Source of the DNA: Niallia sp. Man26 | GTDB lineage: Bacteria; Bacillota; Bacilli; Bacillales; Cytobacillaceae | NCBI RefSeq assembly: GCF_022049065.2 | Contig: NZ_CP095743.1 | Coordinates: forward strand, 2,061,001-2,125,000 | DNA length: 64,000 nucleotides | Direction: 5' to 3' | Shown: positions 5,208-58,592 of the stretch, one piece after another | Layout: each line of letters begins with the position of its first letter | How positions within the stretch are numbered: the stretch's first letter is position 1 | Position numbers and translations under genes: made by a program | The notes under the pieces: model-generated | Database searches by the model: none | Told to the model about the DNA's origin: nothing | The model's input: the letters and a program-made list of their open reading frames with translations, nothing else

Positions 5208-6359
5208 TTATAAAATCTCCTTATACATGGCGATTACTTCTTCTTTTGTAGGCTGAAATGGATTCCCTGGGGCACAAGCATCCACAAGCGCAAACTGAGC
5301 AAGCTTATCTAAGTCTGCTTCAAATACGCCTAATTCTGACAGAGTTGCAGGAATACCCACACTAACGCTTAATTGTTCAATTGCATTTATCACTTCCTCT
5401 GCACATTGCAAAGCTGATTTGCCTTCTGTTTGAATTCCAATAGCCTTAGCAATTGCCGGAAACTTACTTGGGTCTCGTTTAGCATTTTCCCTCTCAACGA
5501 TTGGCAGAAGCATCGCATTACACACACCATGAGGTAAATCGTAAACGCCGCCTAACTGGTGGGCCATTGCATGGACAAATCCAAGTCCTGCATTATTAAA
5601 TGCTACACCAGCAAGGAACATGGCGAATACCATCTGCTCTCTTGCTTTGAGATCCTCCCCATTTTTGACTGCTTTTGGCAAATATTCAAAGATAATTTCA
5701 ACTGCAGCCAAAGCTTGAGCATCTGTAATCCTGTATGCTCCTTTTGACACAATCGCTTCAATCGCATGTGTTAAAGCATCCATCCCTGTAGCAGCTGTCA
5801 ATGCTTCAGGTTTTGCCGTCATCAGCTCAGGATCATTAATGGAAATTGCTGCAAGACTGTTTTTATCAACCATCACCATCTTCACTTGCCGTTCTTCATC
5901 TGTAATAACATAGTTAATCGTATACTCGCTTGAAGTGCCGGCAGTTGTGTTAACTGCTGCAATCGGGACAGATTTATGCGCTGTTTTTCCCACACCTTCG
6001 TATGTTCTTAAATCTCCGCCGTTAGCTGCCATAAGGCCAATAGCCTTTGCTGCATCCTGCGGTGAACCTCCACCGACAGAAACGATACAATCACATTGAT
6101 TTTCTTGAAATACTTGCAAGCCATTCATTACATTAGCAATTGTCGGATTAGGCTTTACTTCGTCGTAAATAATATAATCGATAGCATTGTTTTTCAGTAT
6201 ATTTATCACTTTTTCTGCAATACCATTGTTTACTAATACTTTATCAGTTACAAGCAGTGCTTTCGTAAACTTCAGCTGATGTAAATATTCGCCTGCTTCA
6301 TTTAGGCAGCCTCTTCCGATTAAGTTCGTACTTGGTATATATAAAACATGTGAAGACAT
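5208..6359 (-). CDS. fucO: Iron-containing alcohol dehydrogenase, probable lactaldehyde reductase
   Basis: A 383-residue group III (Fe-dependent) alcohol dehydrogenase. The nucleotide-binding GGGSPQDAAKAIG motif lies near residue 98, and metal-ligand segments GMDALTHAIEAIVS and FVHAMAHQLGG plus LPHGVCNAMLLP follow. These match FucO-type enzymes, which reduce L-lactaldehyde to L-1,2-propanediol with NADH. It is the last gene of the rhamnose operon, 64 bases after rhaD, whose aldolase makes L-lactaldehyde. That context supports lactaldehyde reductase over a generic butanol or 1,3-propanediol dehydrogenase. Start supported by AGGAGG upstream. Confidence 0.87.
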   Translation of the reverse strand: MSSHVLYIPSTNLIGRGCLNEAGEYLHQLKFTKALLVTDKVLVNNGIAEKVINILKNNAIDYIIYDEVKPNPTIANVMNGLQVFQENQCDCIVSVGGGSPQDAAKAIGLMAANGGDLRTYEGVGKTAHKSVPIAAVNTTAGTSSEYTINYVITDEERQVKMVMVDKNSLAAISINDPELMTAKPEALTAATGMDALTHAIEAIVSKGAYRITDAQALAAVEIIFEYLPKAVKNGEDLKAREQMVFAMFLAGVAFNNAGLGFVHAMAHQLGGVYDLPHGVCNAMLLPIVERENAKRDPSKFPAIAKAIGIQTEGKSALQCAEEVINAIEQLSVSVGIPATLSELGVFEADLDKLAQFALVDACAPGNPFQPTKEEVIAMYKEIL

Positions 6360-6423: not shown

Positions 6424-7260
6424 TTAAGCAATAATAATGCCAGGACGGGGGGTAACATGAAATGCTTTTGCTAAGTCAGCTAATTCTCTGTCTGTTATGG
6501 TTTGTTTTATGCGCGCTGGGTCTCCGATTGCTGTGTAAATTTGCGCTGCTTTTTCAGCAGTTTCAATTAGACCGAATGTCTCATCAATTGTTGTACCTGC
6601 ACCGAATATACCATGATGGGGCCATATGACGAGGCGATGCTCCTTCATCTTTTGTGCTGTTTGCAGTCCGATTTCTGCCGTACCAGGAATCATCCATGGC
6701 ACAATGCCAATTCCGTCCGGAAATACAACGATGCATTCTGTGCACATTTGCCAGAGGGTTTTCGTAAACATTGCTTCATCCAGTTCATGAGTAAAAGTCA
6801 TGGCAATAATATTTGTCGCATGATTATGCATGATAACACGATGTTCGCTGTCCACCTTTAGTCTTTCTGTGTGACTTTTGAAATGGGCAGGAAGCTCACT
6901 TGTCGGAAGTGTTCCATCCTCCAATCCCCACAACAGATCAATGCTTTGCCCTCTCTCTCCTACCTTAATAATTCCAAACGTGTTGCAAGGGTCTTCCTTC
7001 GCATTTTTAAAGTATTTGCCTGATCCAGTTACGATAAAAAATTTGCCTTCGAGTTCTTCTACAGACGTCGGAATCGGTATTGTGCGTACCACCTTACTCG
7101 CATCTAAGTATTCTTTCACCTCTTCTTCCTTCAGCAAATAACTGATATTGCCGCCATTTCGTTCATCCCATCCAAGCCTCCACATATTAAAAGCAGCATT
7201 ATACATTTCCTTCAGGAAGGGGGCGTCTTCTAGGTTTTTCTTCTGAACCTTTGTTGGCAT
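6424..7260 (-). CDS. rhaD: Rhamnulose-1-phosphate aldolase
   Basis: Class II (zinc) aldolase that splits L-rhamnulose 1-phosphate into dihydroxyacetone phosphate and L-lactaldehyde; 278 residues, close to the 274 of E. coli RhaD. Visible landmarks are [14 protein letters not shown] near the N-terminus, [12 protein letters not shown], the zinc-binding [12 protein letters not shown] and the second histidine pair [11 protein letters not shown] chose the ATG at 7260 because AAGGAG lies nine bases before it; an ATG two codons upstream is too close to that site. A good promoter and an A/T-rich operator-like tract lie upstream, so it can be transcribed apart from the rest of the rha operon. Confidence 0.94.
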
Positions 7261-7332
7261 TCTCATGCACTCCTTTGTTTTCTCTTAATCTGCTATTTTT
7301 GCTTTTTTCGTATGTTGTCTTTTTACATCTTT

Positions 7333-7435: not shown

Positions 7436-7455
7436 GAAACCCATGATTGGGTTTC
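7436..7455 (-). terminator. Terminator after rhaR
   Basis: Stem arms GAAACCCA / TGGGTTTC with a four-base loop, followed on the minus strand by a T-rich tract. The stem overlaps the rhaR stop codon and separates it from rhaD. Confidence 0.75.
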
Positions 7456-8215
7456 AAATCTTTACAATAGAATAAGGAATTGTTTTTTCCTGCAGCTCCT
7501 TCTGATAGTCAGCAGGGATGTTCACATCGGAAATGACATGATGAACATTTTTCAAATCACAAATATGAGCGAAGGTTTTTACTCCGAATTTAGAAGAATC
7601 GGCAAGCAAGATAACTTGGGAAGAAATATCGATCATCTTCTTCTTTAATATAGCCTGCCACTCATTGGAGTCACTTAAGCCTGACAAATGCACACCCTTG
7701 CATGATAGAAACAGCTTGTTGACATAATAGCTGTCTAAAGATCGTTCTGACAGGGGTCCAACATAGGACAGCGAGTTGGCAAGGAGCATTCCGCCTGTGG
7801 AAATAACTTTAATTTGTTCCTTTTTGCTAAGCTCTAGGGCTACCTTAATAGAATTCGTGATAACCGTCAAAGGCATATCAGGCAATTCCTGAGCCATATA
7901 CCATGCTGTTGTGCTTCCGTCCAATAAGATTTGCTCACTTGGCTCAATCAGCTTCACAGCTTCGGCAGCAATCGCCTTTTTTTCAGCAGAATTGGTAATT
8001 TCCCGCACAATAAACGGAATATCGGTTGCTTCTTTTTCAATGCTGACAGCTCCGCCGTGGCTTCTGCTTAACAGCTGCTCTTGTTCTAACTTTTCTAAGT
8101 CTCTTCTGATTGTTTCTTCTGTAACAGAAAAGATTTCACTCAGCTCTGATACGCGAATGCTTAATCTTTCGTTTACTAATTCAACAATTTTTCTGCGCCT
8201 TTCTGCAACAAGCAA
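7454..8215 (-). CDS. DeoR-family transcriptional regulator of the rhamnose genes
   Basis: A 253-residue DeoR protein. The N-terminal winged helix reads LSIRVSELSEIFSVTEETIR followed by RDLEKLEQEQLLSRSHGGAV, the family hallmark. The C-terminal sugar-phosphate-binding half holds ILLDGSTTAWYMA and VITNSIKVALEL. The start is TTG at 8215, supported by AAAGGGAG upstream; no ATG fits. Placed between the permease and rhaD, it is the likely rhamnose regulator (RhaR-like), sensing a rhamnose-pathway phosphate. Repeat-rich T tracts before its own gene, rhaD, the bifunctional aldolase and lutA are candidate binding sites. Repressor versus activator cannot be decided here. Confidence 0.85.
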   Translation of the reverse strand: MLVAERRRKIVELVNERLSIRVSELSEIFSVTEETIRRDLEKLEQEQLLSRSHGGAVSIEKEATDIPFIVREITNSAEKKAIAAEAVKLIEPSEQILLDGSTTAWYMAQELPDMPLTVITNSIKVALELSKKEQIKVISTGGMLLANSLSYVGPLSERSLDSYYVNKLFLSCKGVHLSGLSDSNEWQAILKKKMIDISSQVILLADSSKFGVKTFAHICDLKNVHHVISDVNIPADYQKELQEKTIPYSIVKI

Positions 8216-8380: not shown

Positions 8381-9703
8381 TTATACCGTTTTATGAACAG
8401 ATTTATGCTCAAGCACATCACCGTAACGCTCTTTTTCAATTTGCTGCAATGTTTTTCCTCTTGTGTCAGGTGCAAGAATTATACCGATAATCATATGAAT
8501 CGCAAGGAAGGCAATCATTACTATACCTGCAACAGTAAACCCTAACGTATCCATCAATAGCGGCAGGATAAACGACCAGACTGCAATACCAGTTCGTACG
8601 ATAAAATACATAAGTCCTTGTGCACTCGCACGATATTTTGTCGGGAAAAGCTCACTTGTCCATAGAGCATAAAACGCTTGTGCACCAATTCCAGCTGCAG
8701 CTCCCCACAGAATAACAAAGGCAATCAGTGTCGGCCATGTCATTGGCATGAATGTCAGGATAATCCAAGCAACAAGTCCCATGCCTGCTCCAATTCCAAA
8801 CAATGTTTTCCGGCTGACCTTATCTCCAAGCTTCATAAACAGGAAGTATGTTGTCAGCACGGTGAACAGCCACAAAAATGCTTGCAGCATATTAGCCTGC
8901 CCTGTGCTTAACCCGCCGACATTTTCATAAATATACGGCATGAAATACCCCATTGCACCTGCTGTTAAATTCCAGAATAAATAAATTCCGATTAACAAAA
9001 CCAATGCCTGACGATTAGCTTTTAGTGTAAATAATTCCTTCAATACATTCGTTTTTGCTTTGCCTTGTAATGCTTCTGCTTTTTCTTTCGCTTGTTGTTC
9101 TTCCCAAATTTTCGATTCATCCAAGCCTCGTCTTATATACCATGTCACAAACGCGATAACCAGCAAGTGTAGAAAAATAATTCTTGAACCAGCAAGCCCT
9201 AGTGGAGCCAAAATAACTGCAAACACAAAGGTTAACGTTGGACCAATTGACCATGCCAACTGGGCGGTTCCGACATGGGCTGCCCGTTTATGCTGCGGAG
9301 ATTCTTCTGCGATATACGTCCATGAAACAGGAACACCGGCACCAACTGCCAACCCTGTAATAATCGTTCCGATTAGCAGCATCGGGAAATTGACAGAGGC
9401 TGCAATCAATGCAACACCAATCATATAGACGAGCAAATCATAGCTAAAAATAAATTTCCGTCCAAATTTATCTGTTAATGGCCCACCAATCAATGCACCT
9501 ATCGCCGCACCGAAAGCGTTTGCACTTAATGCACTTAACAACCCTACACCCATGCTGTCAATATTCAAGTATGCTTGCCACATTGTTAAACTGCTTGCAG
9601 CGGCGATAATAGAGCCTGCTTCAATATAGTTTGCCATTGCTACAGCAATCGTTGCTTTCCAGCCTGTTACGTTTTTTGCCGCAAATTTTTTGTCTTTCGC
9701 CAT
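8381..9703 (-). CDS. MFS sugar permease, probable L-rhamnose transporter
   Basis: A 440-residue major facilitator of the sugar-porter type with about 12 spans. Family motifs include GGPLTDKFGRKFIF after the second helix, a central basic loop of about 60 residues, and KLGDKVSRKTLFG in the second half. It ends with PDTRGKTLQQIEKERYG, very like the PETKGxSLEEIE tail of sugar porters. It lies between rhaM and rhaR in the rhamnose operon, so L-rhamnose/H+ symport is the likely job. It is not related to the E. coli RhaT family. Start supported by AAAGGAGAG upstream. Confidence 0.85.
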   Translation of the reverse strand: MAKDKKFAAKNVTGWKATIAVAMANYIEAGSIIAAASSLTMWQAYLNIDSMGVGLLSALSANAFGAAIGALIGGPLTDKFGRKFIFSYDLLVYMIGVALIAASVNFPMLLIGTIITGLAVGAGVPVSWTYIAEESPQHKRAAHVGTAQLAWSIGPTLTFVFAVILAPLGLAGSRIIFLHLLVIAFVTWYIRRGLDESKIWEEQQAKEKAEALQGKAKTNVLKELFTLKANRQALVLLIGIYLFWNLTAGAMGYFMPYIYENVGGLSTGQANMLQAFLWLFTVLTTYFLFMKLGDKVSRKTLFGIGAGMGLVAWIILTFMPMTWPTLIAFVILWGAAAGIGAQAFYALWTSELFPTKYRASAQGLMYFIVRTGIAVWSFILPLLMDTLGFTVAGIVMIAFLAIHMIIGIILAPDTRGKTLQQIEKERYGDVLEHKSVHKTV

Positions 9704-9744: not shown

Positions 9745-10059
9745 TTAATCCATATGGAAAACTTCTGCTAATGAAATAGTAACAGGACTGTTATCAGCAT
9801 TGGTTTCCATTAAAGGCTCCATGAATTCCCACCATTTCTGGTTGATGGCAGTGCTTGCCATCTTGCTCCATTTTTCCTCATCTTTTATTTCAACATAGCC
9901 AAACAGCTTGCTTGACTCTTTATCAAGAAATATCGTGTAGTTTTTTGCACCATGATCATGAAGTGCTGCTACCATTTCCGGCCATATTTCATTATGGCGT
10001 TTTTCATATTCAGCATGCTTATCTGGATAAACATTCATAATAAAGCCTTTGCGTATCAT
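9745..10059 (-). CDS. rhaM: L-rhamnose mutarotase
   Basis: A 104-residue protein interconverting alpha and beta anomers of L-rhamnose so that the isomerase gets its preferred form. Motifs match RhaM: MNVYPDKHAEYEKRHNEIWP with the catalytic histidine region, HGAKNYTIFLD, FGYVEIKDEEKW and QKWWEFMEPLM. I set the start at the ATG at 10059 rather than an ATG 11 codons upstream, because AAGGGGA lies nine bases before it and the result has exactly the E. coli RhaM length. It lies between rhaA and the permease. Confidence 0.95.
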   Translation of the reverse strand: MIRKGFIMNVYPDKHAEYEKRHNEIWPEMVAALHDHGAKNYTIFLDKESSKLFGYVEIKDEEKWSKMASTAINQKWWEFMEPLMETNADNSPVTISLAEVFHMD

Positions 10060-10138
10060 ACTCTCCATCCCCTTTTTTGTAAAGGTTTTCATTTTTGTTG
10101 TTTTTTCTCCTCCCTAATATTAGTGAGGAGTTAACAAA

Positions 10139-11392
10139 CTAGCGCTGAGCTAAAACATCCTGTTCATATGCTTTCACATTTTCCAGCCATGTTTCTCTTA
10201 CAGGCACATTCATTGTTTCACAATAATAATCCCAAACCGCTCCGAAAGGATATGTCTTAAATTCTTCCATTAATGCTAATCTTTCTGTGAAATTGCCACT
10301 TTCTTGCAGCTGTTTTAATTTCTCATTCGGCATCAATAGGGCATTAAGCAATGCCTTAATCATATTTCTTGTGCCGATTGTCCATGCTGCCACACGATTG
10401 ATGCTTGCGTCAAAGAAATCCAAGCCAATAAGCACCTTGTCAATGGCATTATTGCGGACAATCTCAAGACCAATTTCTTTTAGTTCATCATCAAGTATAA
10501 CGACATGGTCACTATCCCATCTGACAGGTCTTGATACATGAAGTGCTAATTTATCGGAAAACAGCAGCATCGATGAAATCTTATTGGATACTGTTTCAGT
10601 CGGGTGATAATGGCCTGTATCCATCAAGCAGAGCTTATTATTTTTTAAGGCATAGCCCATATAAAACTCATGAGAGCCGACAACATATGATTCAGATCCG
10701 ATGCCAAAGACTTTGCTTTCTACTGCATCTAAATTGTAGCGTTCATCCGTTTTTTCAGCATAGATTTTATCTAATGATTCCTTTAAGCGGATACGAGGTG
10801 TGAGTCTGTCACTTGGAATGTCTTTATATCCGTCTGGTATCCAAATATTTGTTAATGCAGGCGTTCCTAATTCCTTGCCAAAGTACTCTGCAATTTGTCT
10901 GCTTTTAATACAGTGTCTGATCCAAAACTCACGGATGTCTTCGTCTGGATGAGAAAGTGTCAGTCCGTCTTCTGCTTTTTTATGAGAAAATAAAGTCGGG
11001 TTAAAATCAAGGCCTAATCCTTGCTCTTTAGCCCAAGCTACCCAATTTTCGAAATGCTTCGGTTCAATTTCATCCCTTTCGACCGCTTCTCCGTTTGTTT
11101 CTGCATAAATGGCATGCAAGTTTACGCGATGTTTGCCGGGAATGAGCGATAAAGCTACTTCTAAATCACTGCGCAGCTGTTCAGGTGTAGTTGCTTTGCC
11201 AGGATAATTGCCTGTTACATCAATCCCGCCTGACAATTCACTTGGATTGGCCTCAAATCCGCCAATATCATCACCTTGCCAACAATGTATGGAAATAGGA
11301 ATCTCTTGTAACTTTTTCAAGGCTGCCTCTACATCCACGCCCCATTGTTCGTATTGTTTTTTTGCTGCTTCAAAGTTTTCTTTTACTGACAT
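10139..11392 (-). CDS. rhaA: L-rhamnose isomerase
   Basis: Converts L-rhamnose to L-rhamnulose using divalent metal ions in the cytoplasm; 417 residues, the normal length. Landmarks are [17 protein letters not shown] near residue 33, [21 protein letters not shown] around the first metal site and [20 protein letters not shown] at the second. Two adjacent ATG codons are possible starts; the second (11392) has the better seven-base spacing from AGGAGG. It follows rhaB by 12 bases and precedes rhaM, forming the core of the operon. Confidence 0.96.
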
Positions 11393-11404
11393 CATTGCGC
11401 CTCC

Positions 11405-12817
11405 TCATATTGTTTGTGCTGCTTCATATCCTTTTACATCAAAAGAATGCTTTATTAACTTCCTCGCTTCATGTATATCCTTTATTTCTCCTAAAGCAAT
11501 TAATTGCGAAACGATATTGCCGATTGCTGTTGCCTCAACAGGCCCTGCAAACACTTGCTTTTTTGTGGCATCAGCTATGAGCTGGTTCAGCAGTTCGTTT
11601 TGACAGCCCCCGCCGATAATATTAATCTTTGTAAATTTCTTCTCGAAGATTTCTTCAATTTCACCAATTGCTGCAACATAGCACTCTACTAGAGAGTCAT
11701 ATACACATTTGGCGATCTCACCTGGTGTTGAAGGAATAGCTTGATTTGTTTCTGCACAGTATTTTTGTATTTCTTCTATCATATTTTCTGGATTTAAAAA
11801 ACGGTCATCGTTAACATTGACAATCGATGTGAAGTGGCTTGCCGCTTTTGCAAGCTCCACAAATTCAGCAAATGAATATTGATTATCATAATTTCTGCGC
11901 ACTTCTTGAATCATCCATAATCCCATGATGTTCTTCAAAAACCGGAAGCGGTAGTCAATGCCTCCTTCATTTGTGAAGTTGTAATCCAATGCCTTCGTCA
12001 CACATATCGGGAACCTGTTTTCTACTCCAATTAAAGACCATGTGCCTGAACTGATATAAATAGTCTCCTCATGTTCCGGCACTGCAATTACGGCAGAAGC
12101 AGTGTCATGTGTCGCAGGCAGCACAACCTTTAAGCTGAACCCGAATTCCTCTGCCAACTCTTCTTTTATTTCTCCTAATACGGTGCCTGGTGTTTTGATT
12201 TCCTGAAAGATTTCTGGTTTGATAGAAATCGCTTCAAGCAATTGTTTATCCCACTTTTTCGTAAAGGCATTAACGAGCTGTGTGGACGTGGCATTAGTAT
12301 ATTCATTAACCGCTTTACCTGTCAGCAAGTAATGGAAGTAATCTGGAATCATTAAAAATGTAGCTGCTTTATCCAAACTTTCTTGATCTGTTTTCTGAAG
12401 GGCGCGGAGCTGATACATCGTATTGAATTTTTGAAACTGAATGCCGGTTTCCAAGTAAATCCTTTCCTTGATGATATGCTCGAAAACCTCCTCCATCATG
12501 CCGTCAGTCCGGTCATCCCTGTAAGACACTGCCTCTGTCAGCAGCTCACCGTTATCATCGAGCAGTACAAAGTCGACTGCCCATGTATCAATGCCGATAC
12601 TTTCCGGCTTTACATTTAAATCACTGCATTTTTTTATTCCTTGTTTTATTTCGACAAAGAGCTGCTCTAAATCCCAGCAATAGTATTGTCCTTTTTTGAC
12701 AATGCTGTTCGAAAAGCGGTGCACTTCTTCCAAAAACAGTCTCCCCTGTTTTAAAGAACCGAGCATCAGTCGCCCGCTTGAGGCTCCAATATCAACGGCC
12801 AAGACAGATTTGTTCAT
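11405..12817 (-). CDS. rhaB: Rhamnulokinase
   Basis: FGGY-family sugar kinase that phosphorylates L-rhamnulose at O1 with ATP; 470 residues. It starts with the ATP-binding AVDIGASSGRLMLG, continues with GIDTWAVDFVLLD, PATHDTASAV and SSGTWSLIGVE, and ends with the adenine-binding IIGGGCQNELLNQLIADAT. These fit RhaB closely. AAGGAGAGG lies before the ATG. It is the first gene of the leftward rhamnose operon. Its upstream region carries a cre-like site and a perfect AAAATAACGTTATTTT palindrome. Confidence 0.95.
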   Translation of the reverse strand: MNKSVLAVDIGASSGRLMLGSLKQGRLFLEEVHRFSNSIVKKGQYYCWDLEQLFVEIKQGIKKCSDLNVKPESIGIDTWAVDFVLLDDNGELLTEAVSYRDDRTDGMMEEVFEHIIKERIYLETGIQFQKFNTMYQLRALQKTDQESLDKAATFLMIPDYFHYLLTGKAVNEYTNATSTQLVNAFTKKWDKQLLEAISIKPEIFQEIKTPGTVLGEIKEELAEEFGFSLKVVLPATHDTASAVIAVPEHEETIYISSGTWSLIGVENRFPICVTKALDYNFTNEGGIDYRFRFLKNIMGLWMIQEVRRNYDNQYSFAEFVELAKAASHFTSIVNVNDDRFLNPENMIEEIQKYCAETNQAIPSTPGEIAKCVYDSLVECYVAAIGEIEEIFEKKFTKINIIGGGCQNELLNQLIADATKKQVFAGPVEATAIGNIVSQLIALGEIKDIHEARKLIKHSFDVKGYEAAQTI

Positions 12818-12842
12818 ATAATACCTCTCCTTGTTCCCCTTT

Positions 12843-12904
12843 TGAAAACGTTTCCTAATTAGTATTTTACTGAATGAAAACGCATAATAAAATAACGTTA
12901 TTTT
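12843..12904 (-). promoter_or_regulatory. rhaB control region: cre-like site and palindrome
   Basis: At 12843-12856 TGAAAACGTTTCCT resembles a cre site (best agreement with TGAAAACGTTTTCA). At 12889-12904 lies a perfect 16-base palindrome AAAATAACGTTATTTT, which could bind the AraC-type or DeoR-type regulator. Both lie within 90 bases of the rhaB start. Confidence 0.5.
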
Positions 12905-12948: not shown

Positions 12949-12978
12949 AAAAAAACCGGCAAGTTTCGCTACCTTGCC
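12949..12978 (-). terminator. Terminator after the first AraC regulator gene
   Basis: Arms GGCAAG / CTTGCC at 12958-12978, followed on the minus strand by CC and seven T. The first arm overlaps the last codons of the AraC gene. Confidence 0.8.
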
Positions 12979-13934
12979 AGTGCTTTTCTCAGTTCTTTTG
13001 GTGTTTTCTTATATTTTTCTTTAAAGATTCGGTAAAAATAACTGATATTATCATAGCCTACTTCTTCCACTACGGTCCGGACAGGAAAATCGGTCGTTTC
13101 CAGTAGTTCTTTCGCTTTCGTTAAGCGCTTTTCCTGTATTAAATCTTTAAATGTAAAGCCAGTCGCTTTTTTAATATTTTTACTTAAGCTTGAGCTAGAT
13201 TGCATTAAGTGATTGGCAAGCTCCTGAAGAGTGCCGCTTTTATAGTGCTCTTCAATATATTTTAATGATTCAACAATAAGGAAATGCTGAGAAGAGGATG
13301 AAAGGTTTTTCGTGATTTTATCCGTATTTTTCACAAGCTCAATTAAAAGCAGACCCATATACAGCTTCATTTTTGATTCTGCTAGCAGGGAGTTTGCGTT
13401 CTCCTCCTTAATGAGATTTTCAACCAGTACTTGAATTTCCGCCACATCTGCTACAGCATAATATAAATATTGTCCATTTTGCGTGTGATTAAATAAGCTG
13501 TTAATTAAAAACTCGGTAATGATATTCTCACCGTTTAAGTATTGAAAGATAAATTGAAAAAACAATGGCTGAATAATGAAATTAAGGACAAGATCATCTT
13601 CCCCGCATGCCTCAATCTCATGCTCGATATGCTGATTAAGAAAAAGCAGCTCCCCTTTTTTCAAAATAATGGCGTTATTATCTACCTTTTGCCGCAGTTC
13701 TCCCTTCACAACATAATTAATTTCAATATAGTTATGTTTGTGCTTTGGAAAATCAATAAATCTAGTATGTTTCCTAACGGTTATCATTTTGTTTTTATCC
13801 AGAAATTTTTCACTTTCAATAATGAAATGATTTTGACTTGTATATAGGTCTTTCCTGACCTTTTTCTCTTGAGATAATATCTCGGCCTCTTCTTCTGTCA
13901 GTTCCATTAATTGCTTTAAAAGAAGTGCATCCAT
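12969..13934 (-). CDS. AraC-family transcriptional regulator (cupin sensor), rhamnose-side copy
   Basis: A 321-residue AraC regulator. The N-terminal half contains a cupin-like sugar-sensing core, FPKHKHNYIEINYVVKG and LLFLNQHIEHEI. The C-terminal 100 residues form the two helix-turn-helix motifs, TLQELANHLMQSSSSLSKNI and the signature YDNISYFYRIFKEKYKKTPK. I moved the start to the ATG at 13934 because AGGGGGA lies seven bases before it. It lies directly upstream of the rhaB operon on the same strand and is a paralogue of the AraC at 18318. It probably activates rhamnose or rhamnoside genes; the effector is inferred from position. Confidence 0.88.
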   Translation of the reverse strand: MDALLLKQLMELTEEEAEILSQEKKVRKDLYTSQNHFIIESEKFLDKNKMITVRKHTRFIDFPKHKHNYIEINYVVKGELRQKVDNNAIILKKGELLFLNQHIEHEIEACGEDDLVLNFIIQPLFFQFIFQYLNGENIITEFLINSLFNHTQNGQYLYYAVADVAEIQVLVENLIKEENANSLLAESKMKLYMGLLLIELVKNTDKITKNLSSSSQHFLIVESLKYIEEHYKSGTLQELANHLMQSSSSLSKNIKKATGFTFKDLIQEKRLTKAKELLETTDFPVRTVVEEVGYDNISYFYRIFKEKYKKTPKELRKALAR

Positions 13935-14028
13935 ATAAATTCCCCCTGACTTCTCAGTTAGAAGCTTCATTACTATATTACTAACAATCTCAAAGTTTAG
14001 GCAATCAAAAAATGAAACCGTTTTACTA

Positions 14029-14078: not shown

Positions 14079-16733
14079 CTATTTTTGAAATGTTTTTAGT
14101 TTCACACTTCCAAGCAGCCCAGTTGGCTGCAAGATTCTGTATTGAGAAAGATAGTCTTTTTGGGCAGTTCCAAGTGTATTCGTCACTTCCACTGTCAACA
14201 AATTCCGGCCTTTTTGAACAAAGGGAGAAATATCATAAACGTATGGCTTACTTACCTTTACTCCTGCAGAAGAGCCATTTATAAACACTTCGGCAATTTC
14301 ATAAGCTTCGCCTAAATCAAGCTGATAATCAGTTGAACAATCATTTATGAATAACTCTTTTTGGTATCGAACACTACCAGAAAATGCTGGATACAAAGAA
14401 GGTTTAGCGATGTTTGTTAATTCCTCCAACACAAAGCTTTTATGGAAGCTCGGATACTCAGCTGCTGTTGCTAATGCAACCTCCCACGGGCCAGTTATTT
14501 CACATTCTCCCGTTTGCTTGCTGGCAGGAACTTGTTGAGCGTCGAGCTGACAATCGGACACAATCCATATTGCTGCTTCCTGCGGTGCCAAGAATAATGG
14601 AATTTCATTTTGAATTGTCTCCACCCAACGAAGGCAATTGTTTTCCCATGGATCATATTTATATAGATAACCTGATTCCTTGAGTGTCACTTTATTGATA
14701 ATCTCACTATCTGGTGATTCATTAAAAAACATATACACGGTGTTTTCTAAATGATGATATTGGTAATATCGCAGGTCAGCTGCTGCCTTTTCTAACATAA
14801 TTTCATAGGCCCCTTCTGCTCTCATCATGCTTGCAAGCTTTTCTAAAGGCACTATCTTGACTTGTTCTGATTCTTCTAGCCATTTTATTTCGTCACTTAC
14901 TAAATCATCCTCACTTGCTCCAACAGGGAGAGCATTAATAAATATCAGCATTGCTCCGGCGCGAATCAGCTGTGCTGCTTTTTCAAAGAATGCTTTCGGC
15001 AGCCGTTCTGCATATGGAATGACTAGGTTATGAAACTCCTCCTGATGTAAGAGGATTTTATTATTTTTCACCTCAGCATTCATAAGCAAGTCTAGTGATA
15101 CTATATCAAAATCGATTTGATTCTGTGTTAATACCTTTGCTGGTTTTTGGAAAAGCATTGCATTCCCTGACCACTCTGCTTCTGCATGATAAAGAATTAG
15201 TGATGTGGCGACATGCTGTCCGTCACTTAACAGCTCTGACACCCGATTTGTATAATTCATTAATAAATGCAAATAGCGATGCTGCGGATTGATGCCATGT
15301 GCATAAAAATGGGGCGGACAGTCTGCATCTGGAAATGGTGCCATGTCAAAAGAATGGGGCACAAAGTGATTGATTCCTCTAACAAGCATATGGTCTGTCA
15401 TCCATTTCATCAGATTTAATCCTTCAGACCAGCCGTAGGCTCCGTATATTTCACACATTGTTCTGCCTTTTTTCTGGGAGTCCAAATGACCAAGCGATGC
15501 CCCAAGTTTACCTAAGCCATAATGAAAGAATTCTCCGTCCCATCCTGTTGAAGTGAATGTTTTGAAATAGCCTTCATCCATTCCAGGAAGGAGCTGATGC
15601 AAGACTACATCAATGCCTGACATACTTTGGCCGCCAAGTGCGCGGAAGAAATGTCCGGCACCATAGCCTAATCTTCCATGTGCATTATTATCCTCTATTA
15701 AATGACCAACATATTCTACCCCATGCTCAGTACACCAGTGAGCTAGTTTATTTGTAAAATTTTCTGCATACATTTTTGAAACGAGATTCATATAAGCATG
15801 CCTTATTTGATGCTGTTTTTTTGTACCATCTGTAAGGAGCAGAGGCAATAGTTCCTTGGCTGATTTTCCGAATGTCTCCTCCAACATAGCAACGATGTTT
15901 GCATGCCACGGCAGCACCATTTCCGTTTTTCCGATAATAGCATCCGGGCCTTTTATATTGCCGAATCTAGGTTCATCTGTAAAAAAACCAGCAATCGTTG
16001 TCCCGAAATACGATGAGAATTTGTCAAAATGAGGCTGATAAACTGTATCTATTAATACTTGGGTGGCATTTGGATCAATTGGATTTAAATAACCTTCTGT
16101 TGATCTTTCTCCACCGCTGAAAGTTTCTACTAAAATAAAAATTCGCCAATTGCCTTCTGGAACATCCCAATAAACAACACCATTTTCTAAATGCTTCGTA
16201 ATATCAACAAGTGTATCGGTATCGACTGTATTGTAATCTATGATTTTTGCAGCTATTATGCCAATAATCTGGTCAGCTGTGTCCTTTTGTCCGTTTATTT
16301 CCGCAGTTCCGTCTGTTCCTACAGACAGAATTGAATTTCGGTCCCCACTTGCATGTCTAACGATAATGCCAGCATTTCTTTGCGGGCCATGAAAATCAAG
16401 CTGTGTTATTTTTAAAAATTTCTTTCTTAATTCTGGATGATGCTTTATTATTGCCCCGTTTGCATAGCCTGTTGGAAAATGTGCATCATCAAACAACCAT
16501 ACCTTCATGTTCTTTTCCTTAGCCACTTCTAATACGATCTGTAAATCTTTCCACCATCTTTCACCGACAAAATCAGGATGGGGCCGGGGCTCGACGCAAA
16601 CCGCTCTTATCCCGCTTTTATAAATTTCGTGCATATATTCCTCAATTACTTCCTCAGACTCTCCATGCATCCATAGAAAAGGAAATATATAATTATTTTC
16701 TTGCTGCGTTAATAATTTAGTTAATTTTTCCAT
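14079..16733 (-). CDS. Cytoplasmic GH106-like glycoside hydrolase (putative alpha-L-rhamnosidase)
   Basis: An 884-residue protein with no signal peptide. The N-terminal half is a TIM-barrel of the type seen in GH106-like enzymes: FLWMHGESEEVIEEYM, CVEPRPHPDFVGERWW, KVWLFDDAHFPTGYANG and TTIAGFFTDEPRFGN. A middle Rossmann-like region follows. The last 170 residues are jelly-roll domains with RYQKELFINDC, EVFINGSSAGVKVSKPYVYD and GRNLLTVEVTNTLGT. GH106 members are alpha-L-rhamnosidases, but relatives with other activities exist, so the substrate is inferred. Its start overlaps the PTS gene by 17 bases, implying coupled translation and action on a PTS-imported, phosphorylated sugar. It lies next to the rhamnose operon. 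Confidence 0.75.
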   Translation of the reverse strand: MEKLTKLLTQQENNYIFPFLWMHGESEEVIEEYMHEIYKSGIRAVCVEPRPHPDFVGERWWKDLQIVLEVAKEKNMKVWLFDDAHFPTGYANGAIIKHHPELRKKFLKITQLDFHGPQRNAGIIVRHASGDRNSILSVGTDGTAEINGQKDTADQIIGIIAAKIIDYNTVDTDTLVDITKHLENGVVYWDVPEGNWRIFILVETFSGGERSTEGYLNPIDPNATQVLIDTVYQPHFDKFSSYFGTTIAGFFTDEPRFGNIKGPDAIIGKTEMVLPWHANIVAMLEETFGKSAKELLPLLLTDGTKKQHQIRHAYMNLVSKMYAENFTNKLAHWCTEHGVEYVGHLIEDNNAHGRLGYGAGHFFRALGGQSMSGIDVVLHQLLPGMDEGYFKTFTSTGWDGEFFHYGLGKLGASLGHLDSQKKGRTMCEIYGAYGWSEGLNLMKWMTDHMLVRGINHFVPHSFDMAPFPDADCPPHFYAHGINPQHRYLHLLMNYTNRVSELLSDGQHVATSLILYHAEAEWSGNAMLFQKPAKVLTQNQIDFDIVSLDLLMNAEVKNNKILLHQEEFHNLVIPYAERLPKAFFEKAAQLIRAGAMLIFINALPVGASEDDLVSDEIKWLEESEQVKIVPLEKLASMMRAEGAYEIMLEKAAADLRYYQYHHLENTVYMFFNESPDSEIINKVTLKESGYLYKYDPWENNCLRWVETIQNEIPLFLAPQEAAIWIVSDCQLDAQQVPASKQTGECEITGPWEVALATAAEYPSFHKSFVLEELTNIAKPSLYPAFSGSVRYQKELFINDCSTDYQLDLGEAYEIAEVFINGSSAGVKVSKPYVYDISPFVQKGRNLLTVEVTNTLGTAQKDYLSQYRILQPTGLLGSVKLKTFQK

Positions 16734-18135
16734 TATATCTCCCTGCCCTATTTTTTTTAACCATTAATTTAGCTGTTTGCTTTCCAGTCAGAATATAAGT
16801 AATAGCTAATGTTACGAAAAATGCTACAAGCGCTGAAATTATATAAGCTGTAAAGCTAGAATCAATCCCTTTTGGATTGATGAACAGTGGTGCAGCGAAA
16901 AGTGCATTGCCGCCAAATCCATACATTTTTGCATTCATAAAGGCTGTTATGCCCCCGGCAATTCCTCCACCTATAAAGGCAGCGACAAATGGCTTTTTGT
17001 AGGGAATCGCAATACTGTAAATAATCGGCTCCGTTACTCCAAAGAGCCCTGTCATGCCTGTCGAAAATCCTAGTGAGCGATTCGCTTTATCTTTTTGCTT
17101 TAAAGCAAAACCAATGGCTGCTCCTGCCAAGGCAAATACAGTTACATTTAAAATGGCATTGATCGGGTCTTCTCCCATTGTTGTAATATTGTTCATTAGA
17201 ATCGGGATAAACGCATAATGCAGACCAAAGATAACGACCAATTGCCAAAATGCTCCAAGGATTATTCCTGTTATTACTGGGCTTATCCCATAAACTGCTT
17301 GTGTACCAGATGCAAGAATATCACTTAAATAAGTCATCAGCGGTCCAATTAATAAAAAGGTTGTAGGTACTGTAATGATGAGAACAAGGAGCGGAGTCAG
17401 GAAGAACTTCACCGCATCCGGCACTTTATCTTTTATTCTTTTTTCTATAAATGCTGCCAAGGCAACTGCTGCAATAATCGGAAACACCGAATTTCCATAA
17501 CTCGCCAGCACAACCGGTATTTGCAGGAACGTAATATGAGCTCCTTCATTGTAAAGAGCAGTAATATTAGGGTAAACAAGCCCTGCTCCAATCGTTGCTG
17601 CCACAAATGGATTGGAGTTCAGTTTCATCGCAGCAGAAACGCCAAGAATAATCGGCATAAAATAGAAGAATCCATCTGAAAAAGCGTACAATATTTGATA
17701 GGTGCCACTTTCAGTTGATAGCAGCTGAAAGGAAGTAAAACCTGCAAGCAAGCCCTTTATGATACCGGCGGCTGTCATGACACCCATTACTGGGAAGAGA
17801 ATGCCAGATATGAGTTTAAAAAAGCGATTAAATGCCCCTTCTTTGACTTGACTAGAACGTTCGGTATTTTGTGCAGACTGCTCATGCTCTATCGATAGCA
17901 GTTTTATAACCTGATCATATGCTTTCGACACTCCTGTTCCAACAATTATCTGATATTGTCCGCCAGATACAGCTGTTCCTAATACACCTTGTATTTTTTT
18001 TATGGCTTCTGTGTTTGCTTTGCTTTCATCCTTCAGCACGAATCGCAGCCTTGTCATACAATGTGTAATGCTTGAAACATTTTCCTTGCCTCCAATTTCA
18101 GAAACAACACTTTCTGCCAACTTTGTATAATCCAT
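16717..18135 (-). CDS. PTS beta-glucoside-type transporter subunit IIBC
   Basis: A 472-residue PTS permease of the glucose-sucrose-beta-glucoside superfamily. The N-terminal IIB domain (residues 1-85) has the phosphorylated cysteine in SSITHCMTRLRFVLKD. A IIC domain of about 10 spans follows, with ISGILFPVMGVMTAAGIIKG near residue 110 and the loop GLFGVTEPIIYSIAIPYKKP. There is no C-terminal IIA domain, so an EIIA must act in trans. It heads a two-gene operon with the overlapping GH106-like gene. Its substrate would be a disaccharide bearing a phosphorylatable primary hydroxyl. GAGGAG lies eight bases before the ATG. Confidence 0.9.
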   Translation of the reverse strand: MDYTKLAESVVSEIGGKENVSSITHCMTRLRFVLKDESKANTEAIKKIQGVLGTAVSGGQYQIIVGTGVSKAYDQVIKLLSIEHEQSAQNTERSSQVKEGAFNRFFKLISGILFPVMGVMTAAGIIKGLLAGFTSFQLLSTESGTYQILYAFSDGFFYFMPIILGVSAAMKLNSNPFVAATIGAGLVYPNITALYNEGAHITFLQIPVVLASYGNSVFPIIAAVALAAFIEKRIKDKVPDAVKFFLTPLLVLIITVPTTFLLIGPLMTYLSDILASGTQAVYGISPVITGIILGAFWQLVVIFGLHYAFIPILMNNITTMGEDPINAILNVTVFALAGAAIGFALKQKDKANRSLGFSTGMTGLFGVTEPIIYSIAIPYKKPFVAAFIGGGIAGGITAFMNAKMYGFGGNALFAAPLFINPKGIDSSFTAYIISALVAFFVTLAITYILTGKQTAKLMVKKNRAGRYNGKIN

Positions 18136-18212
18136 TTACGCCACTCCTCTATCGGTATATGACCAACTAATTTACCTGCCTTTGCATTACGTTAATTCAG
18201 TAATATCGTTAT

Positions 18213-18226
18213 TGGAACCGCTAACA
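18213..18226. promoter_or_regulatory. cre-like site between the PTS gene and AraC
   Basis: TGGAACCGCTAACA fits TGWNANCGNTNWCA except for one position. It lies in the 182-base divergent control region, about 80 bases from the PTS start. Confidence 0.55.
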
Positions 18227-18317
18227 ATTTTTATTGTAATGTAAATATATTTATATTAAAATTGCTGAATATAACTACTTACTTTACCAAACTTAACTTT
18301 TTAGAAAGAGGTGGAGC

Positions 18318-19352
18318 ATGCAAAAAACTGAATTAATGGAGCTCTTGTTTACTATGTCTGACAGAGAGCTCTATTATAAAACCAATCCAGATTACTATAA
18401 TTCCTTGTTTGATAGCTGTGACAGCATAGAGCTTAATAACCAAAAAGTATATGTCTTCAAGTTCAACGATCAAAAAAAGGAGAATGCCTATTCTCCGCCT
18501 AACCCAACTCTTGAAATTGTTAAGCATTCCAGGTATTCTACTATTCCTTTCCATATTCATGACTATATAGAAATGAACTATGTATATGCAGGGACCTGCA
18601 CGGCTATCGTCCAGGATAAAGTTATCCCGTTACAGTGCGGAGATGTTTGTATCATGGATACAAACGTGCCTCATACAATCTGTGATGCAGAGGAAAAGGA
18701 TATTATCATCAATATTCTCATGGATAAAAGCTACTTTACTGCTTCCATGCTCGGACAGCTGTCAAGCAATAGCATTATTTCCGACTTTATATTAGAGGCT
18801 ATATCACATGATCGCCTGCATAACCGCTTTCTTTTATTTCACTGTCAGAACAGTGATAAGCTAGGCTCACACGTCGAGAATCTGTTATGTGAATTCTACG
18901 AACCTAGCTTTTGCTCAAAAGATATTATCAACGCTTATATGGTATTAATCTTTGCAGAAATGCTTCGACATTTTCAAACAGACAATAACAGCAAATCGGC
19001 TAATGGGAAACAGAATCCGATATTGGATATCCTTCTATACATGGAGGAAAATTTTCAAAGCTGTACCTTACAAGAGGTAGCACAGCATTTCAGCTTCCAT
19101 CCCAACTATTTAAGCAGGCTTATTAAAAAAAGTACTGGGAAAAGCTTCAAACAGCTACTTCAGGAACAAAAGCTTAACAAAGCTTCCTATTTGCTAAATC
19201 ACACATCCATGACAATTGCCGAAATTTTAAATGAAATAGGATATCAAAATCATGGCTTCTTTAATAGAATCTTTAAAGAGAGATATAATGTGACACCTAA
19301 AGAGTATCAAAGGAATATTCACCTTGGACAAAAAAGCACGCCCATTTCTTAA
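18318..19352 (+). CDS. AraC-family transcriptional regulator (cupin sensor), rhamnoside-side copy
   Basis: A 344-residue regulator divergent from the PTS/glycosidase operon. The N-terminal half has a cupin core with IPFHIHDYIEMNYVYAG and CGDVCIMDTNVPHTI. The C-terminal DNA-binding part shows TLQEVAQHFSFHPNYLSRLI and QNHGFFNRIFKERYNVTPKE. It is clearly homologous along its length to the AraC protein at 12969-13934. The divergent arrangement suggests it activates the PTS operon when the imported sugar or a product is present. AGAGGTGGA precedes the ATG. Confidence 0.9.
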   Translation: MQKTELMELLFTMSDRELYYKTNPDYYNSLFDSCDSIELNNQKVYVFKFNDQKKENAYSPPNPTLEIVKHSRYSTIPFHIHDYIEMNYVYAGTCTAIVQDKVIPLQCGDVCIMDTNVPHTICDAEEKDIIINILMDKSYFTASMLGQLSSNSIISDFILEAISHDRLHNRFLLFHCQNSDKLGSHVENLLCEFYEPSFCSKDIINAYMVLIFAEMLRHFQTDNNSKSANGKQNPILDILLYMEENFQSCTLQEVAQHFSFHPNYLSRLIKKSTGKSFKQLLQEQKLNKASYLLNHTSMTIAEILNEIGYQNHGFFNRIFKERYNVTPKEYQRNIHLGQKSTPIS

Positions 19353-24958: not shown

Positions 24959-27028
24959 TTATCTTGTAAATGCTGCTGGAACTCCACCGTCGACTGTAAT
25001 CATGCAGCCTGTTGTTTTCTCTGCTTTTGATGATGCAAAATAGCTGATAGCTTCTGCAATATCTTTCGGATAAATGTTAACGAGTAAAGTGGTGCGTTTA
25101 CGGTAATGCTCATCAAGCTGATCTGGTTCAATTCCGTAGGCTGCCGCTCTTTCTTCACGCCAGCTAGATCCCCAAATAGCAGAACCTTGCAAGACTGCAT
25201 CAGGCAGTACTGAATTGACGCGGATGCCATATTCTCCTCCTTCGGCAGCGATGCAGCGGGCAAGATGTGTTTCCATTGCCTTGACTGCACTGTATGCAGC
25301 TGCGTTTTTGCCTGCATAAACGGAGTTTTTCGAACCGATGAATACCATGCTTCCGCCTAGAGCCTGTTCCTTCATTTGTTTAAATGCTTCTCTTGCAACA
25401 AGGAAATACCCTGTGCCAAGCACATTCATATTTAAATTCCACTCTTTTAACGATGTTTCATCAAACGGGCTAGAAGTTGCCAAGCCTGCATTATTAACGA
25501 TAATATCAACACCGCCAAAAGCAAGAGCTGTCCGCTTGTAGGCAGCTTGTACTGCTTCCTCACTTGTAACATCCATTTTCACTGCAATAGCACGCTCTTC
25601 TCCATATGTCTCATTGATTTCTGCGGCTACCTTTTCTGCACCTTCTAAGTTCAAGTCTGCCAGAACAACATGCGCGCCTTGTGATGCGAGCAGCCTGCAT
25701 GTTTCACTGCCGATTCCGCCAGCTCCGCCTGTGACGAATGCCACTTTACGTGAAAATTCTGCTTCCTTAGGTGCTAGTGATAATTTATATAGCTCTAATG
25801 GCCAATATTCCACATTGAAGGATTCATTTTCATTCAAGGACACAAAGTTTCCTAGTGCTGTTGCACCTTTCATAACAGAAATTGCTCTGTGATACAAGGC
25901 ACCGCTTACTTTAGACATAGCAACGTTTTTGCCTGTGTTAACCATGCCGATTCCTGGTATTAAAATAACGCGGGGTGCTGTTTCAAATATTTGATCTCCT
26001 TCATTCTTATTTCTATCAAAATAAGCTGTATAGGATTCTTTAAATGCTGCTATTCCCTCTTTCACTGCTTCCTTCAATGCAGCGATATCCTTTGTTGCTG
26101 GGTCCCATTCTACATATAATGGCACCATTTTTGTATGAACTAAATGATCTGGACAAGCTGCTCCGACTTGTGACAATGTTTTTGCATCATGGCTGTTCAC
26201 AAACTCAAGGACGTCTTCTCCTCTGTCATAAGTTAACAGCATCTTCTTTTCTTCACTAACAGCTCCGCGGATAACTGGCATAACAGCAGCCAAAATCTCT
26301 TCAGCATCTTCCACGCGTAGTGAATCATATTTAGCGCCGCCGAATGTTTGTGATTCGTTTATTTTACTATTAATATAGGATTCTGCTTCATTAATGATAG
26401 AAATTGTTTTTTCATAGCTTTCCGAAGCTGTATCTCCCCACACAACTAAACCATGCTTTTCCATTAGTACTAGCTCAGCATTGGGATTGTTTTTTACCCC
26501 TTCTGCTATCATTTTAGATAAAGTGAATCCAGGGCGAATGTATGGAACCCAAACAAAGCGGTTGCCGTAAATTTCTTCAGCAATTTGCTTGCCGTTATCT
26601 GCACAGCAAAGGCTAATGATTGCATCAGGGTGCGTATGGTCTACATGCTTGAATGGCAAAAATGCATGCAATAATGTTTCAATAGATGCACGAGGATGTT
26701 TGCTGTCGATCATGCAGTGTGACAAATATTCAACCATCTCTTCATCTGGCATTTCTTCTTTTTCAATAAGCGGGGTGATGTCGTCTAGTTTCAAACCTGT
26801 AAAATTATGCGCTTTCATTGTTGCTAAGTCAGAGCCGCTTCCTTTTACCCACATCACTTCAACTTCACGGCCTCTGAAATCTGTTACGGTTGTTTTCATG
26901 GAAGTATTTCCGCCGCCCCAGTTGCAGACAGCCCGGTCTGTCCCGATTAAATTGGAGCGATAAACTAACTCATCAAGTCCACTAGCTAATTGTGCTGCCT
27001 TTTCTTCTTGCCATAAGCTTTTTACCAT
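24959..27028 (-). CDS. rhaE: Bifunctional rhamnulose-1-phosphate aldolase / lactaldehyde dehydrogenase
   Basis: A 689-residue fusion. Residues 1-400 form a class II aldolase domain with CNWGGGNTSMKTT, MWVKGSGSDLATM, the zinc-site VDHTHPDAIISLCCAD and MEKHGLVVWGDT. Residues 430-689 are a short-chain dehydrogenase with FVTGGAGGIGSETCRLLAS, NNAGLATSSPFD and the catalytic YSAVKAMETHLAR. This matches the RhaEW/YuxG-type enzyme, which splits rhamnulose 1-phosphate and oxidises L-lactaldehyde to L-lactate. It lies 110 bases after lutC, and LutABC oxidises L-lactate to pyruvate, so the neighbourhood forms a complete drain. A T-rich repeat tract and a TATAAT hexamer precede it, suggesting its own promoter. 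Confidence 0.9.
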   Translation of the reverse strand: MVKSLWQEEKAAQLASGLDELVYRSNLIGTDRAVCNWGGGNTSMKTTVTDFRGREVEVMWVKGSGSDLATMKAHNFTGLKLDDITPLIEKEEMPDEEMVEYLSHCMIDSKHPRASIETLLHAFLPFKHVDHTHPDAIISLCCADNGKQIAEEIYGNRFVWVPYIRPGFTLSKMIAEGVKNNPNAELVLMEKHGLVVWGDTASESYEKTISIINEAESYINSKINESQTFGGAKYDSLRVEDAEEILAAVMPVIRGAVSEEKKMLLTYDRGEDVLEFVNSHDAKTLSQVGAACPDHLVHTKMVPLYVEWDPATKDIAALKEAVKEGIAAFKESYTAYFDRNKNEGDQIFETAPRVILIPGIGMVNTGKNVAMSKVSGALYHRAISVMKGATALGNFVSLNENESFNVEYWPLELYKLSLAPKEAEFSRKVAFVTGGAGGIGSETCRLLASQGAHVVLADLNLEGAEKVAAEINETYGEERAIAVKMDVTSEEAVQAAYKRTALAFGGVDIIVNNAGLATSSPFDETSLKEWNLNMNVLGTGYFLVAREAFKQMKEQALGGSMVFIGSKNSVYAGKNAAAYSAVKAMETHLARCIAAEGGEYGIRVNSVLPDAVLQGSAIWGSSWREERAAAYGIEPDQLDEHYRKRTTLLVNIYPKDIAEAISYFASSKAEKTTGCMITVDGGVPAAFTR

Positions 27029-54484: not shown

Positions 54485-54492
54485 ATTGCCTC

Positions 54493-56241: not shown

Positions 56242-56678
56242 TAGTTTATACCTCCAATATGTTGATTACTTTTCATCATTAACTTCTTGATAGACTTGTT
56301 TTTAGCCAACAGTATCATCCCAGCAGACATGTATAAGACAACACTGATGATATCCATAATGATGTAGCTCATAGCTCCACATACTAAAAACCACACTGCC
56401 ACTTTTACATGAACTTGATCATCTTTAATATATTTTTTTGCACAGACCAAGTTAAACATGCCGACTCCGATAAGAATGGATCCAAATATTGCGATAAATA
56501 TATAGATACTTCCAACAACTGATTCCAATGCTTTCATATAAGCAAAGCTCGTGTTTTCAATTAGATTTGCACCTTCTACTTTTTTCAAAGTTCCATACAC
56601 TAAGATCGTAAATAAACCATCAATTATCTGCCAAATCCCAGCTATTCTCACTAAGTTTCTTTCCAATCTTCTGTTCAT
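56241..56678 (-). CDS. Small membrane protein inside the ABC/GH2 operon
   Basis: A 145-residue protein of unknown family with about four hydrophobic segments: IWQIIDGLFTILVYGTL, SIYIFIAIFGSILIGVGMFN, AVWFLVCGAMSYIIMDIISV and VLYMSAGMILLA. Its start overlaps the permease stop (TAATG) and its stop overlaps the GH2 start in the same way, so it is tightly coupled to sugar uptake and hydrolysis. A role in the transporter complex is possible but not shown by the sequence. Confidence 0.75.
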   Translation of the reverse strand: MNRRLERNLVRIAGIWQIIDGLFTILVYGTLKKVEGANLIENTSFAYMKALESVVGSIYIFIAIFGSILIGVGMFNLVCAKKYIKDDQVHVKVAVWFLVCGAMSYIIMDIISVVLYMSAGMILLAKNKSIKKLMMKSNQHIGGIN

Positions 56679-57523: not shown

Positions 57524-57541
57524 TTCAAACCCTCCTTCACT

Positions 57542-58465: not shown

Positions 58466-58592
58466 CGCTCCACTCCCCCTTTTTTTCTATGTTTGAATAG
58501 AAAAAATATACTAAACTCGCAAAATATCAATGGTTAAAGCTTACCTTCTGCTGTATACAAAAGGTAAGCTTCTACCTTCTATTTTCTCCAAA

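Follow-up and report, generated by a model that had tools for sequence, protein, structure and literature searches.

The closest described counterparts of the system treated here are the Ram106B proteins, i.e., Tm_Ram106B of Thermotoga maritima and its kin, four alpha-L-rhamnosidases that are filed in glycoside hydrolase family 106 (GH106) without possessing its classical catalytic acid, E461 in the family member BT_0986. According to their description (PMC6828813), these enzymes keep the general base of BT_0986, whereas D458-S459 is changed to D-E, E538 to H and E561 to D; they cleave the rhamnoside alone among the p-nitrophenyl (pNP) substrates tried, and a cytoplasmic location was proposed for them because they lack signal peptides. 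Here we describe a gene unit of Niallia sp. Man26 that probably couples a GH106 protein of apparently the same kind to the phosphotransferase system (PTS). It lies in a 64-kb window (the whole stretch of DNA analysed, in whose positions all coordinates without a locus or contig label are given) and comprises a beta-glucoside-type EIIBC gene without IIA domain (16717..18135, minus strand, 472 aa; Pfam and NCBIfam), the gene of the GH106 protein, a proposed cytoplasmic alpha-L-rhamnosidase resembling Ram106B (14079..16733, minus strand, 884 aa; Pfam, alignment and model), and a divergent AraC-family regulator, the proposed activator of the pair (18318..19352, plus strand; open reading frame (ORF) list and Pfam). 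With the Ram106B enzymes the GH106 protein shares the proposed location, the D-E, H and D changes and the kept general base. Unlike Tm_Ram106B, whose gene is co-regulated with ABC transporter genes according to the same paper, it has a PTS partner, and R256 and E209 mark its branch.

The transporter side has parallels of its own. Bgl-type systems combine an EIIBC(A) of the same family with a GH1 6-phospho-beta-glucosidase, such that the glycoside is imported as 6-phosphate and then cleaved by a cytoplasmic phospho-glycosidase. The Niallia unit would differ from them in that the first bond to be broken is that of an alpha-rhamnoside whose leaving (+1) sugar carries the phosphate, and in that it has an AraC-type regulator rather than a BglG-type antiterminator. 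A precedent for a phosphate on the +1 sugar is the PTS uptake of sucrose followed by the GH32 sucrose-6-phosphate hydrolase, though the enzyme family is unrelated there, and fructose stands where rhamnose stands here. Furthermore, there are PTS-less GH106 relatives (those of loci L032, L034, L052 and others) that are near kin of the window enzyme, some of them with GH1 beta-glucosidase genes in the flanks, but they have GPH or ABC transporters there, the plain GH1 signature and a glycine at position 256. Full-text searches of an openly licensed library turned up neither a phospho-rhamnosidase nor a PTS route by which rhamnosyl glucosides are taken up, in agreement with the first-pass annotation of this DNA, which knew of no such route.

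The reading that we favour, with a probability of roughly 0.7, is that rhamnosyl glucosides are imported as 6-phospho-glucosides via the PTS, and that the GH106 protein then acts on the phosphorylated form and frees its rhamnose. The assignment to GH106 is supported by profile, fold and general base. The protein matches PF17132 with 49.5 bits against a cut-off of 29, and also PF02837. Its AlphaFold2 model (from a 52-row alignment; mean pLDDT 91.8) finds GH106 structures at all of the first three Foldseek ranks, namely 6q2f (E 1.1e-43) and the BT_0986 structures 5mwk (E 4.3e-37) and 5mqm (E 9.4e-37), and the next match is to GH42 at E 3.1e-13. Identity to the solved GH106 structures is just 13-14% (Foldseek). 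When aligned with a profile of 27 GH106-like ORFs from more distant loci, the match spans 796 columns (E 8.8e-95). These 27, each of more than 750 aa, were taken from 32 matching ORFs in 28 loci (L057-L084) that were used for this profile alone, and BT_0986 itself is absent from the alignment.

Residue equivalences were read by eye on this alignment, with residue roles taken from PMC6828813. The general base, E593 of BT_0986, corresponds to E428, which falls on a conserved Glu of the distant profile and is invariant in the 52 rows. In the DSxE motif, D corresponds to D253, S to E254, and the final E, i.e., the classical acid E461, to R256. The later Glu residues E538 and E561 correspond to H344 and D375, of which D375 is the least sure placement. 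D253-E254, H344 and D375 are invariant in the 52 rows, which is the Ram106B pattern; since the Ram106B enzymes are likewise without an acid of the E461 type, this acid does not define all of GH106. The window protein thus appears to show the active-site pattern of the Ram106B branch as set by its published description rather than by an alignment of the Ram106B sequences themselves, and alpha-L-rhamnosidase activity is proposed for it. Its N-terminus, MEKLTKLLTQQENNYIFPFLW, has no long hydrophobic run when read by eye, without a signal-peptide predictor, and the model opens with a helix (2-8) followed by a strand (19-21). The first-pass annotation had called the protein GH106-like and free of a signal peptide, and had placed its gene in a 17-base overlap with EIIBC and beside a divergent AraC gene. 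The profile, the Foldseek ranking and the distant alignment bear out the first of these claims, the N-terminus as read agrees with the second, and the overlap (16717-16733) and the AraC gene are found as it had them. A GGGAG stretch stands directly 5′ of the ATG of the GH106 gene at 16733.

For the EIIBC protein, matches above cut-off to PF02378 (EIIC) and PF00367 (EIIB) place it in the glucose superfamily. Its best NCBIfam model is TIGR01995 (beta-glucoside IIABC), with 482 bits, which is below the cut-off of 614.7, and only the first 455 of the 618 model positions are matched, the IIA part being missing. It is thus classed as a beta-glucoside-like EIIBC only and not as a whole member of TIGR01995. 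The EIIB motif reads THCMTRLRF, and we take its Cys to be the phospho-Cys of EIIB. Without a IIA domain in the protein, the IIA function must come from elsewhere in the genome, which encodes 14 EIIA_1 domains, including two in 161-aa ORFs.

The pairing of the two genes is not confined to this genome. A search for the GH106 protein found 106 relatives, of which the best 80 were kept and the neighbourhoods of 52 (L005-L056) were read. A glucose-family EIIBC or EIIBCA stands near the GH106 gene in 35 of them and a lactose-type EIIC in 2, 13 are without PTS, and the remaining 2 are L055, which is cut by a contig end and was later counted as PTS-less, and L048, which was dropped for its split GH106 frame. 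From later search matches 65 loci were fetched with their flanks, i.e., all except L100, L131, L132, L185, L188, L191, L197, L198, L200 and some unlabelled pieces. Many of these repeat species of the first set, and the 118 rows became 104 after dropping those more than 97% identical; weak extra GH106 ORFs in L040, L204 and L224 were also left out of the counts. With "PTS-linked" meaning a glucose- or lactose-family EIIC in the flanks examined, some of which end at contig ends, 41 of the 104 rows are PTS-linked and 63 are not. Among the latter, no EIIC of these two families was found even at E 1e-3, mannose-type PTS lying outside this search. The gap between PTS gene and GH106 gene is below 410 bases in 31 of the 41 linked loci and below 3.2 kb in all of them, and 35 have an AraC gene on the opposite strand within 4 kb. 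The EIIBC-GH106 pairing recurs in Bacillaceae, Paenibacillaceae, Enterococcaceae, Listeriaceae, Clostridiaceae and Lachnospiraceae, such that the PTS coupling of GH106 that had been noted in the window stands as a conserved trait. In an IQ-TREE analysis, the 37 glucose-family rows (the 35, the window and a second copy in the same genome) fall on one side of a branch with support 100/99; nine PTS-less rows form the adjoining group, and the others lie outside.

The occurrence of GH106 relatives is nonetheless patchy. At E 1e-60, and including PTS-less relatives, they are present in 3 of 13 genomes at genus level, 17 of 193 at family level, 11 of 398 at class level and 10 of 398 at phylum level, as well as in 26 of 291 genomes from the class to which L039 belongs and in 5 of 105 from the family to which L033 belongs. 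A search of a plasmid collection gave 37 records with at best 50% identity and no near copy. The second copy in the Niallia genome belongs to an AraC-EIIBCA-GH106 module on contig C3 (57145-62823; L085:9145-14823), and its GH106 protein is closest in the IQ-TREE analysis to that of Robertmurraya (L017), not to the window copy.

The presence of a PTS partner is mirrored in the enzyme. R256, at the place of the classical acid, is found in 38 of the 41 PTS-linked rows and in none of the 63 others, where G, A, E, C, D, S, L, K or Y stands at position 256. Among the rows first aligned, conservation of at least 85% in 36 PTS rows combined with absence from nine PTS-less neighbours holds for 18 positions, the start Met included. 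A stricter test, which asked for conservation of 95% or more in the 38 R256 rows and for absence from 13 near relatives without PTS, leaves 9 positions. Of these, 8 (E209, T212, R256, G258, G262, Y357, G397 and W398) belong to loops at the barrel's catalytic end, as assigned by hand from the secondary structure of the model. This is an enrichment over 155 conserved positions with a Fisher p of 0.003, although the rows share descent, such that Fisher values overstate the case and serve as guides only. Only E209 and R256 are absent from all 63 PTS-less rows. We propose E209, T212, R256, Y357 and W398 as the PTS-branch signature of the window enzyme; its proposed preference for a phosphorylated substrate is drawn from the R256 correlation only.

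With respect to where the phosphate would sit, GH1 genes in the flanks are informative. A 6-phospho signature marks them in all 13 of the PTS loci with such a gene, against 0 of 8 others, which have the plain form. The call was made with a hand-made pattern, S..KRYG or LacG-like, which we take to be the 6-phospho signature. NCBIfam models agree above cut-off for L008 (6-phospho-beta-glucosidase) and L047 (6-phospho-beta-galactosidase), and the GH1 protein of L032 is nearest to a plain beta-glucosidase model, below its cut-off. Phospho-type GH1 partners in PTS loci point to a phosphate on glucose rather than on rhamnose, which is what the first-pass annotation had argued from the chemistry of rhamnose. 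In the Niallia genome there are 23 GH1 matches, 18 of them near full length; 12 were fetched, and the pattern assigns the phospho signature to 8 of these.

The PTS type itself has been exchanged. In a locus of the same genus (L134:2341-9619), a GH106 protein with the full signature stands beside a lactose/cellobiose-type IIA, two IIB, a IIC and a PRD regulator, which is a clean case of transporter exchange. Furthermore, the EIIBC tree requires 5 changes to account for the GH106-linked rows, of which well-supported branches force at least 3, and the partners of L014/L020, of L045/L050 and of L017 stand apart from the two main groups. A swap of PTS type with the enzyme signature kept is the outcome to be expected if selection favours a phosphorylated substrate.

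On the rhamnose side, rhaA/rhaB are found in the flanks of 5 of the 41 PTS rows (the window, L014, L017, L029 and L033), which sit in different parts of the tree, and in none of the 63 others. GH78 rhamnosidase genes occur near some members, PTS-linked and PTS-less alike. In the window, RhaB, RhaA, RhaM and RhaD all match their models above cut-off, and together with the recurring linkage this upholds the rhamnose end of the pathway that had been put forward earlier. The earlier proposal had further named a 1,2-linked disaccharide as substrate. In our analysis, a linkage of 1,2, 1,3 or 1,4 would fit, since the C6 hydroxyl is free in each, and 1,2 is not singled out; the substrate may also carry an aglycone. 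Among plant compounds, neohesperidosides (1,2) and acteoside-type phenylpropanoid glycosides (1,3) would qualify. Rutinose-type (1,6) substrates were set aside, as their glucose O6 is blocked and the 6-phospho GH1 partners would imply a phosphate at that very place.

The favoured reading would then run as follows. EIIBC would import an alpha-L-rhamnosyl-(1->2, 1->3 or 1->4)-beta-D-glucoside and phosphorylate its glucose at O6. The GH106 enzyme would split off the rhamnose with the 6-phospho-glucosyl part in its +1 site, for which R256, E209, T212 and Y357, all in loops at the barrel's catalytic end, are candidate contacts. The freed rhamnose would pass to RhaM, RhaA, RhaB and RhaD, whose genes are assigned in the window. 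The 6-phospho-beta-glucoside left over would be split by a GH1 6-phospho-beta-glucosidase, encoded in the flanks in some species and elsewhere in the genome in this one; were a free disaccharide the substrate, glucose 6-phosphate would enter glycolysis directly.

Several observations weigh against this reading, in addition to the shared descent of the rows. Most of the strict positions do occur outside the PTS-linked set: of the 63 rows without PTS, 19 have G258, 20 have G262 and 16 have G397, and T212, Y357 and W398 are seen in 4, 3 and 1, respectively. Three PTS-linked rows are without R256, namely L047 and L056, which have a lactose-type EIIC and a LacG-like GH1, and L222, which has an EIIBC and a GH43 gene; R256 is thus not required for PTS coupling, and it was ruled out as a universal rule. 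FastTree on the 104 rows nests the PTS-less sister group inside the R256 group, whereas IQ-TREE on the 53 rows keeps it outside; either R256 was acquired along with the PTS, or this PTS-less group has lost the two jointly. A GH1 gene is in the flanks of just 13 of the 41 PTS loci, and none was found beside the window unit among the window ORFs and in the Pfam scan. The flanks of 36 of the 41 PTS rows are without rhaA/rhaB. L048 combines an AraC gene, a GH106 gene split into two ORFs and a 6-phospho-type GH1 with no EIIBC in its 18.6 kb. Finally, HAD phosphatase genes lie near L007, L011, L012 and L016, and HAD-like ORFs, recognised by eye, near L047, L050 and L056.

The last of these points leaves room for a route that could begin with dephosphorylation. 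In such a case, the rhamnosidase would be coupled to the PTS, yet the phosphate would be removed first by a HAD phosphatase, or would be ignored by an enzyme that acts, like other members of GH106, on unphosphorylated rhamnosides. The activity of the Ram106B enzymes on pNP-rhamnoside (PMC6828813) and the three rows lacking R256 speak for this, but R256 otherwise tracks the PTS state, the Pfam scan returned no HAD family for the window neighbours that it covered, and the 6-phospho-type GH1 in PTS loci fits a pathway that keeps its phosphate, such that we regard this explanation as unlikely. Less probable still is a PTS-coupled glycosidase of GH106 fold that acts on a glycone other than rhamnose, with the rha neighbours being coincidental. 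The low identity to solved GH106 structures, the arginine at the place of the classical acid and the scarcity of rhaA/rhaB beside PTS rows would suit it. Against this stand the specificity for the rhamnoside among pNP substrates that PMC6828813 reports for enzymes with the same active-site pattern, the recurrence of the rhaA/rhaB linkage across the tree and its absence from PTS-less rows, and the GH78 genes near some members. As to a chance adjacency of EIIBC and GH106 without a common pathway, the genome has 36 EIIC matches, so a PTS gene will often be nearby; the overlap of the genes, the recurrence of the pairing in six families, the short gaps, the changes on the EIIBC tree and the replacement of one PTS type by another make it so improbable that we consider it ruled out.

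Beyond the window enzyme, the widespread GH106 branch as a whole (38 dereplicated rows) might have turned into phospho-specific enzymes, 6-phospho-glucoside alpha-L-rhamnosidases, by virtue of the arginine at the place of the classical acid, and might constitute together with its PTS an undescribed uptake route for rhamnosyl glucosides, with PTS coupling having re-arisen in L047/L056 and in L222. To this broader proposition we give an even chance. The two Enterococcus loci (L047:6693-12648 and L056:6610-12741), in which the GH106 gene without R256 stands between the lactose-type EIIC and the LacG-like GH1, are probably a separate PTS coupling. If the proposed route is real, alpha-L-rhamnosidase would join the short list of activities on PTS-phosphorylated glycosides, and beta-glucoside-type PTS porters of Bacillota that are so far unassigned could, as a set, be given a substrate class. 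R256 together with E209 would be a simple annotation marker, enzymes that discriminate naringin-type from rutin-type glycosides would be at hand, and the branch would bear on how GH106 enzymes work without the classical acid.

As for regulation, the AraC protein probably induces the EIIBC-GH106 unit. A conserved sequence between the two divergent genes, AGTTAAGTTTGGT (18286..18298, minus strand), recurs in all of 5 near relatives, with two mismatches at the most, and is a candidate AraC operator. It was also considered as an operator shared with rhaB and rejected as such: it occurs exactly once in the window, before EIIBC, and its two matches with 2 mismatches lie elsewhere. Cre-like sites, matched with a pattern that we take to be the cre consensus, precede EIIBC (18212..18226) and rhaB (12842..12856) and suggest catabolite repression. 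The pattern has 4 matches in the 64 kb against a mean of 1.29 in shuffled sequence, with 3 of 100 shuffles reaching 4, and the site before EIIBC is kept exactly in 2 of 5 near relatives and with one mismatch in the other 3.

The unit heads a run of ten minus-strand genes that extends from EIIBC at 18135 down to an alcohol dehydrogenase gene at 5208. After the GH106 gene, there follow a second AraC-family regulator (12969..13970; Pfam and NCBIfam), rhaB for rhamnulokinase (11405..12817; TIGR02627), rhaA for L-rhamnose isomerase (10139..11395; TIGR01748) and rhaM for L-rhamnose mutarotase (9745..10092; TIGR02625), the latter three above cut-off. The rhaBAM genes had been described as adjoining the unit, which holds for their order, though the second AraC gene intervenes between the GH106 gene and rhaB. 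The operon had also been drawn too short, since beyond rhaM the string continues with an MFS sugar transporter (8381..9703; PF00083, PF07690), possibly for free rhamnose to judge by its position, a DeoR-family regulator (7454..8215; Pfam), rhaD for rhamnulose-1-phosphate aldolase (6424..7266; TIGR02624, above cut-off) and the iron-containing alcohol dehydrogenase (5208..6359; PF00465), possibly a lactaldehyde reductase. The string suffices for the conversion of rhamnose to dihydroxyacetone phosphate (DHAP) and lactaldehyde, and would cover the reduction of lactaldehyde as well if this is what the dehydrogenase acts on; the same dehydrogenase family is also found near rhaBA in L017, L029 and L033 (by Pfam for L017).

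Some further observations concern carbohydrate genes around the modules and elsewhere in the window. GH67-family genes, of the alpha-glucuronidase type, lie downstream in L011, L019, L021, L022 and L048 (modules of Amphibacillus and Paenibacillus; by Pfam for L011 only). Besides RhaD, the window encodes a bifunctional rhamnulose-1-phosphate aldolase/dehydrogenase at 24959-27028 (TIGR02632, above cut-off), and thus holds two rhamnose aldolase routes about 20 kb apart. At 52658-59861, two GH2-family genes adjoin an ABC sugar transporter with two permeases and a binding protein, which form a separate carbohydrate locus.

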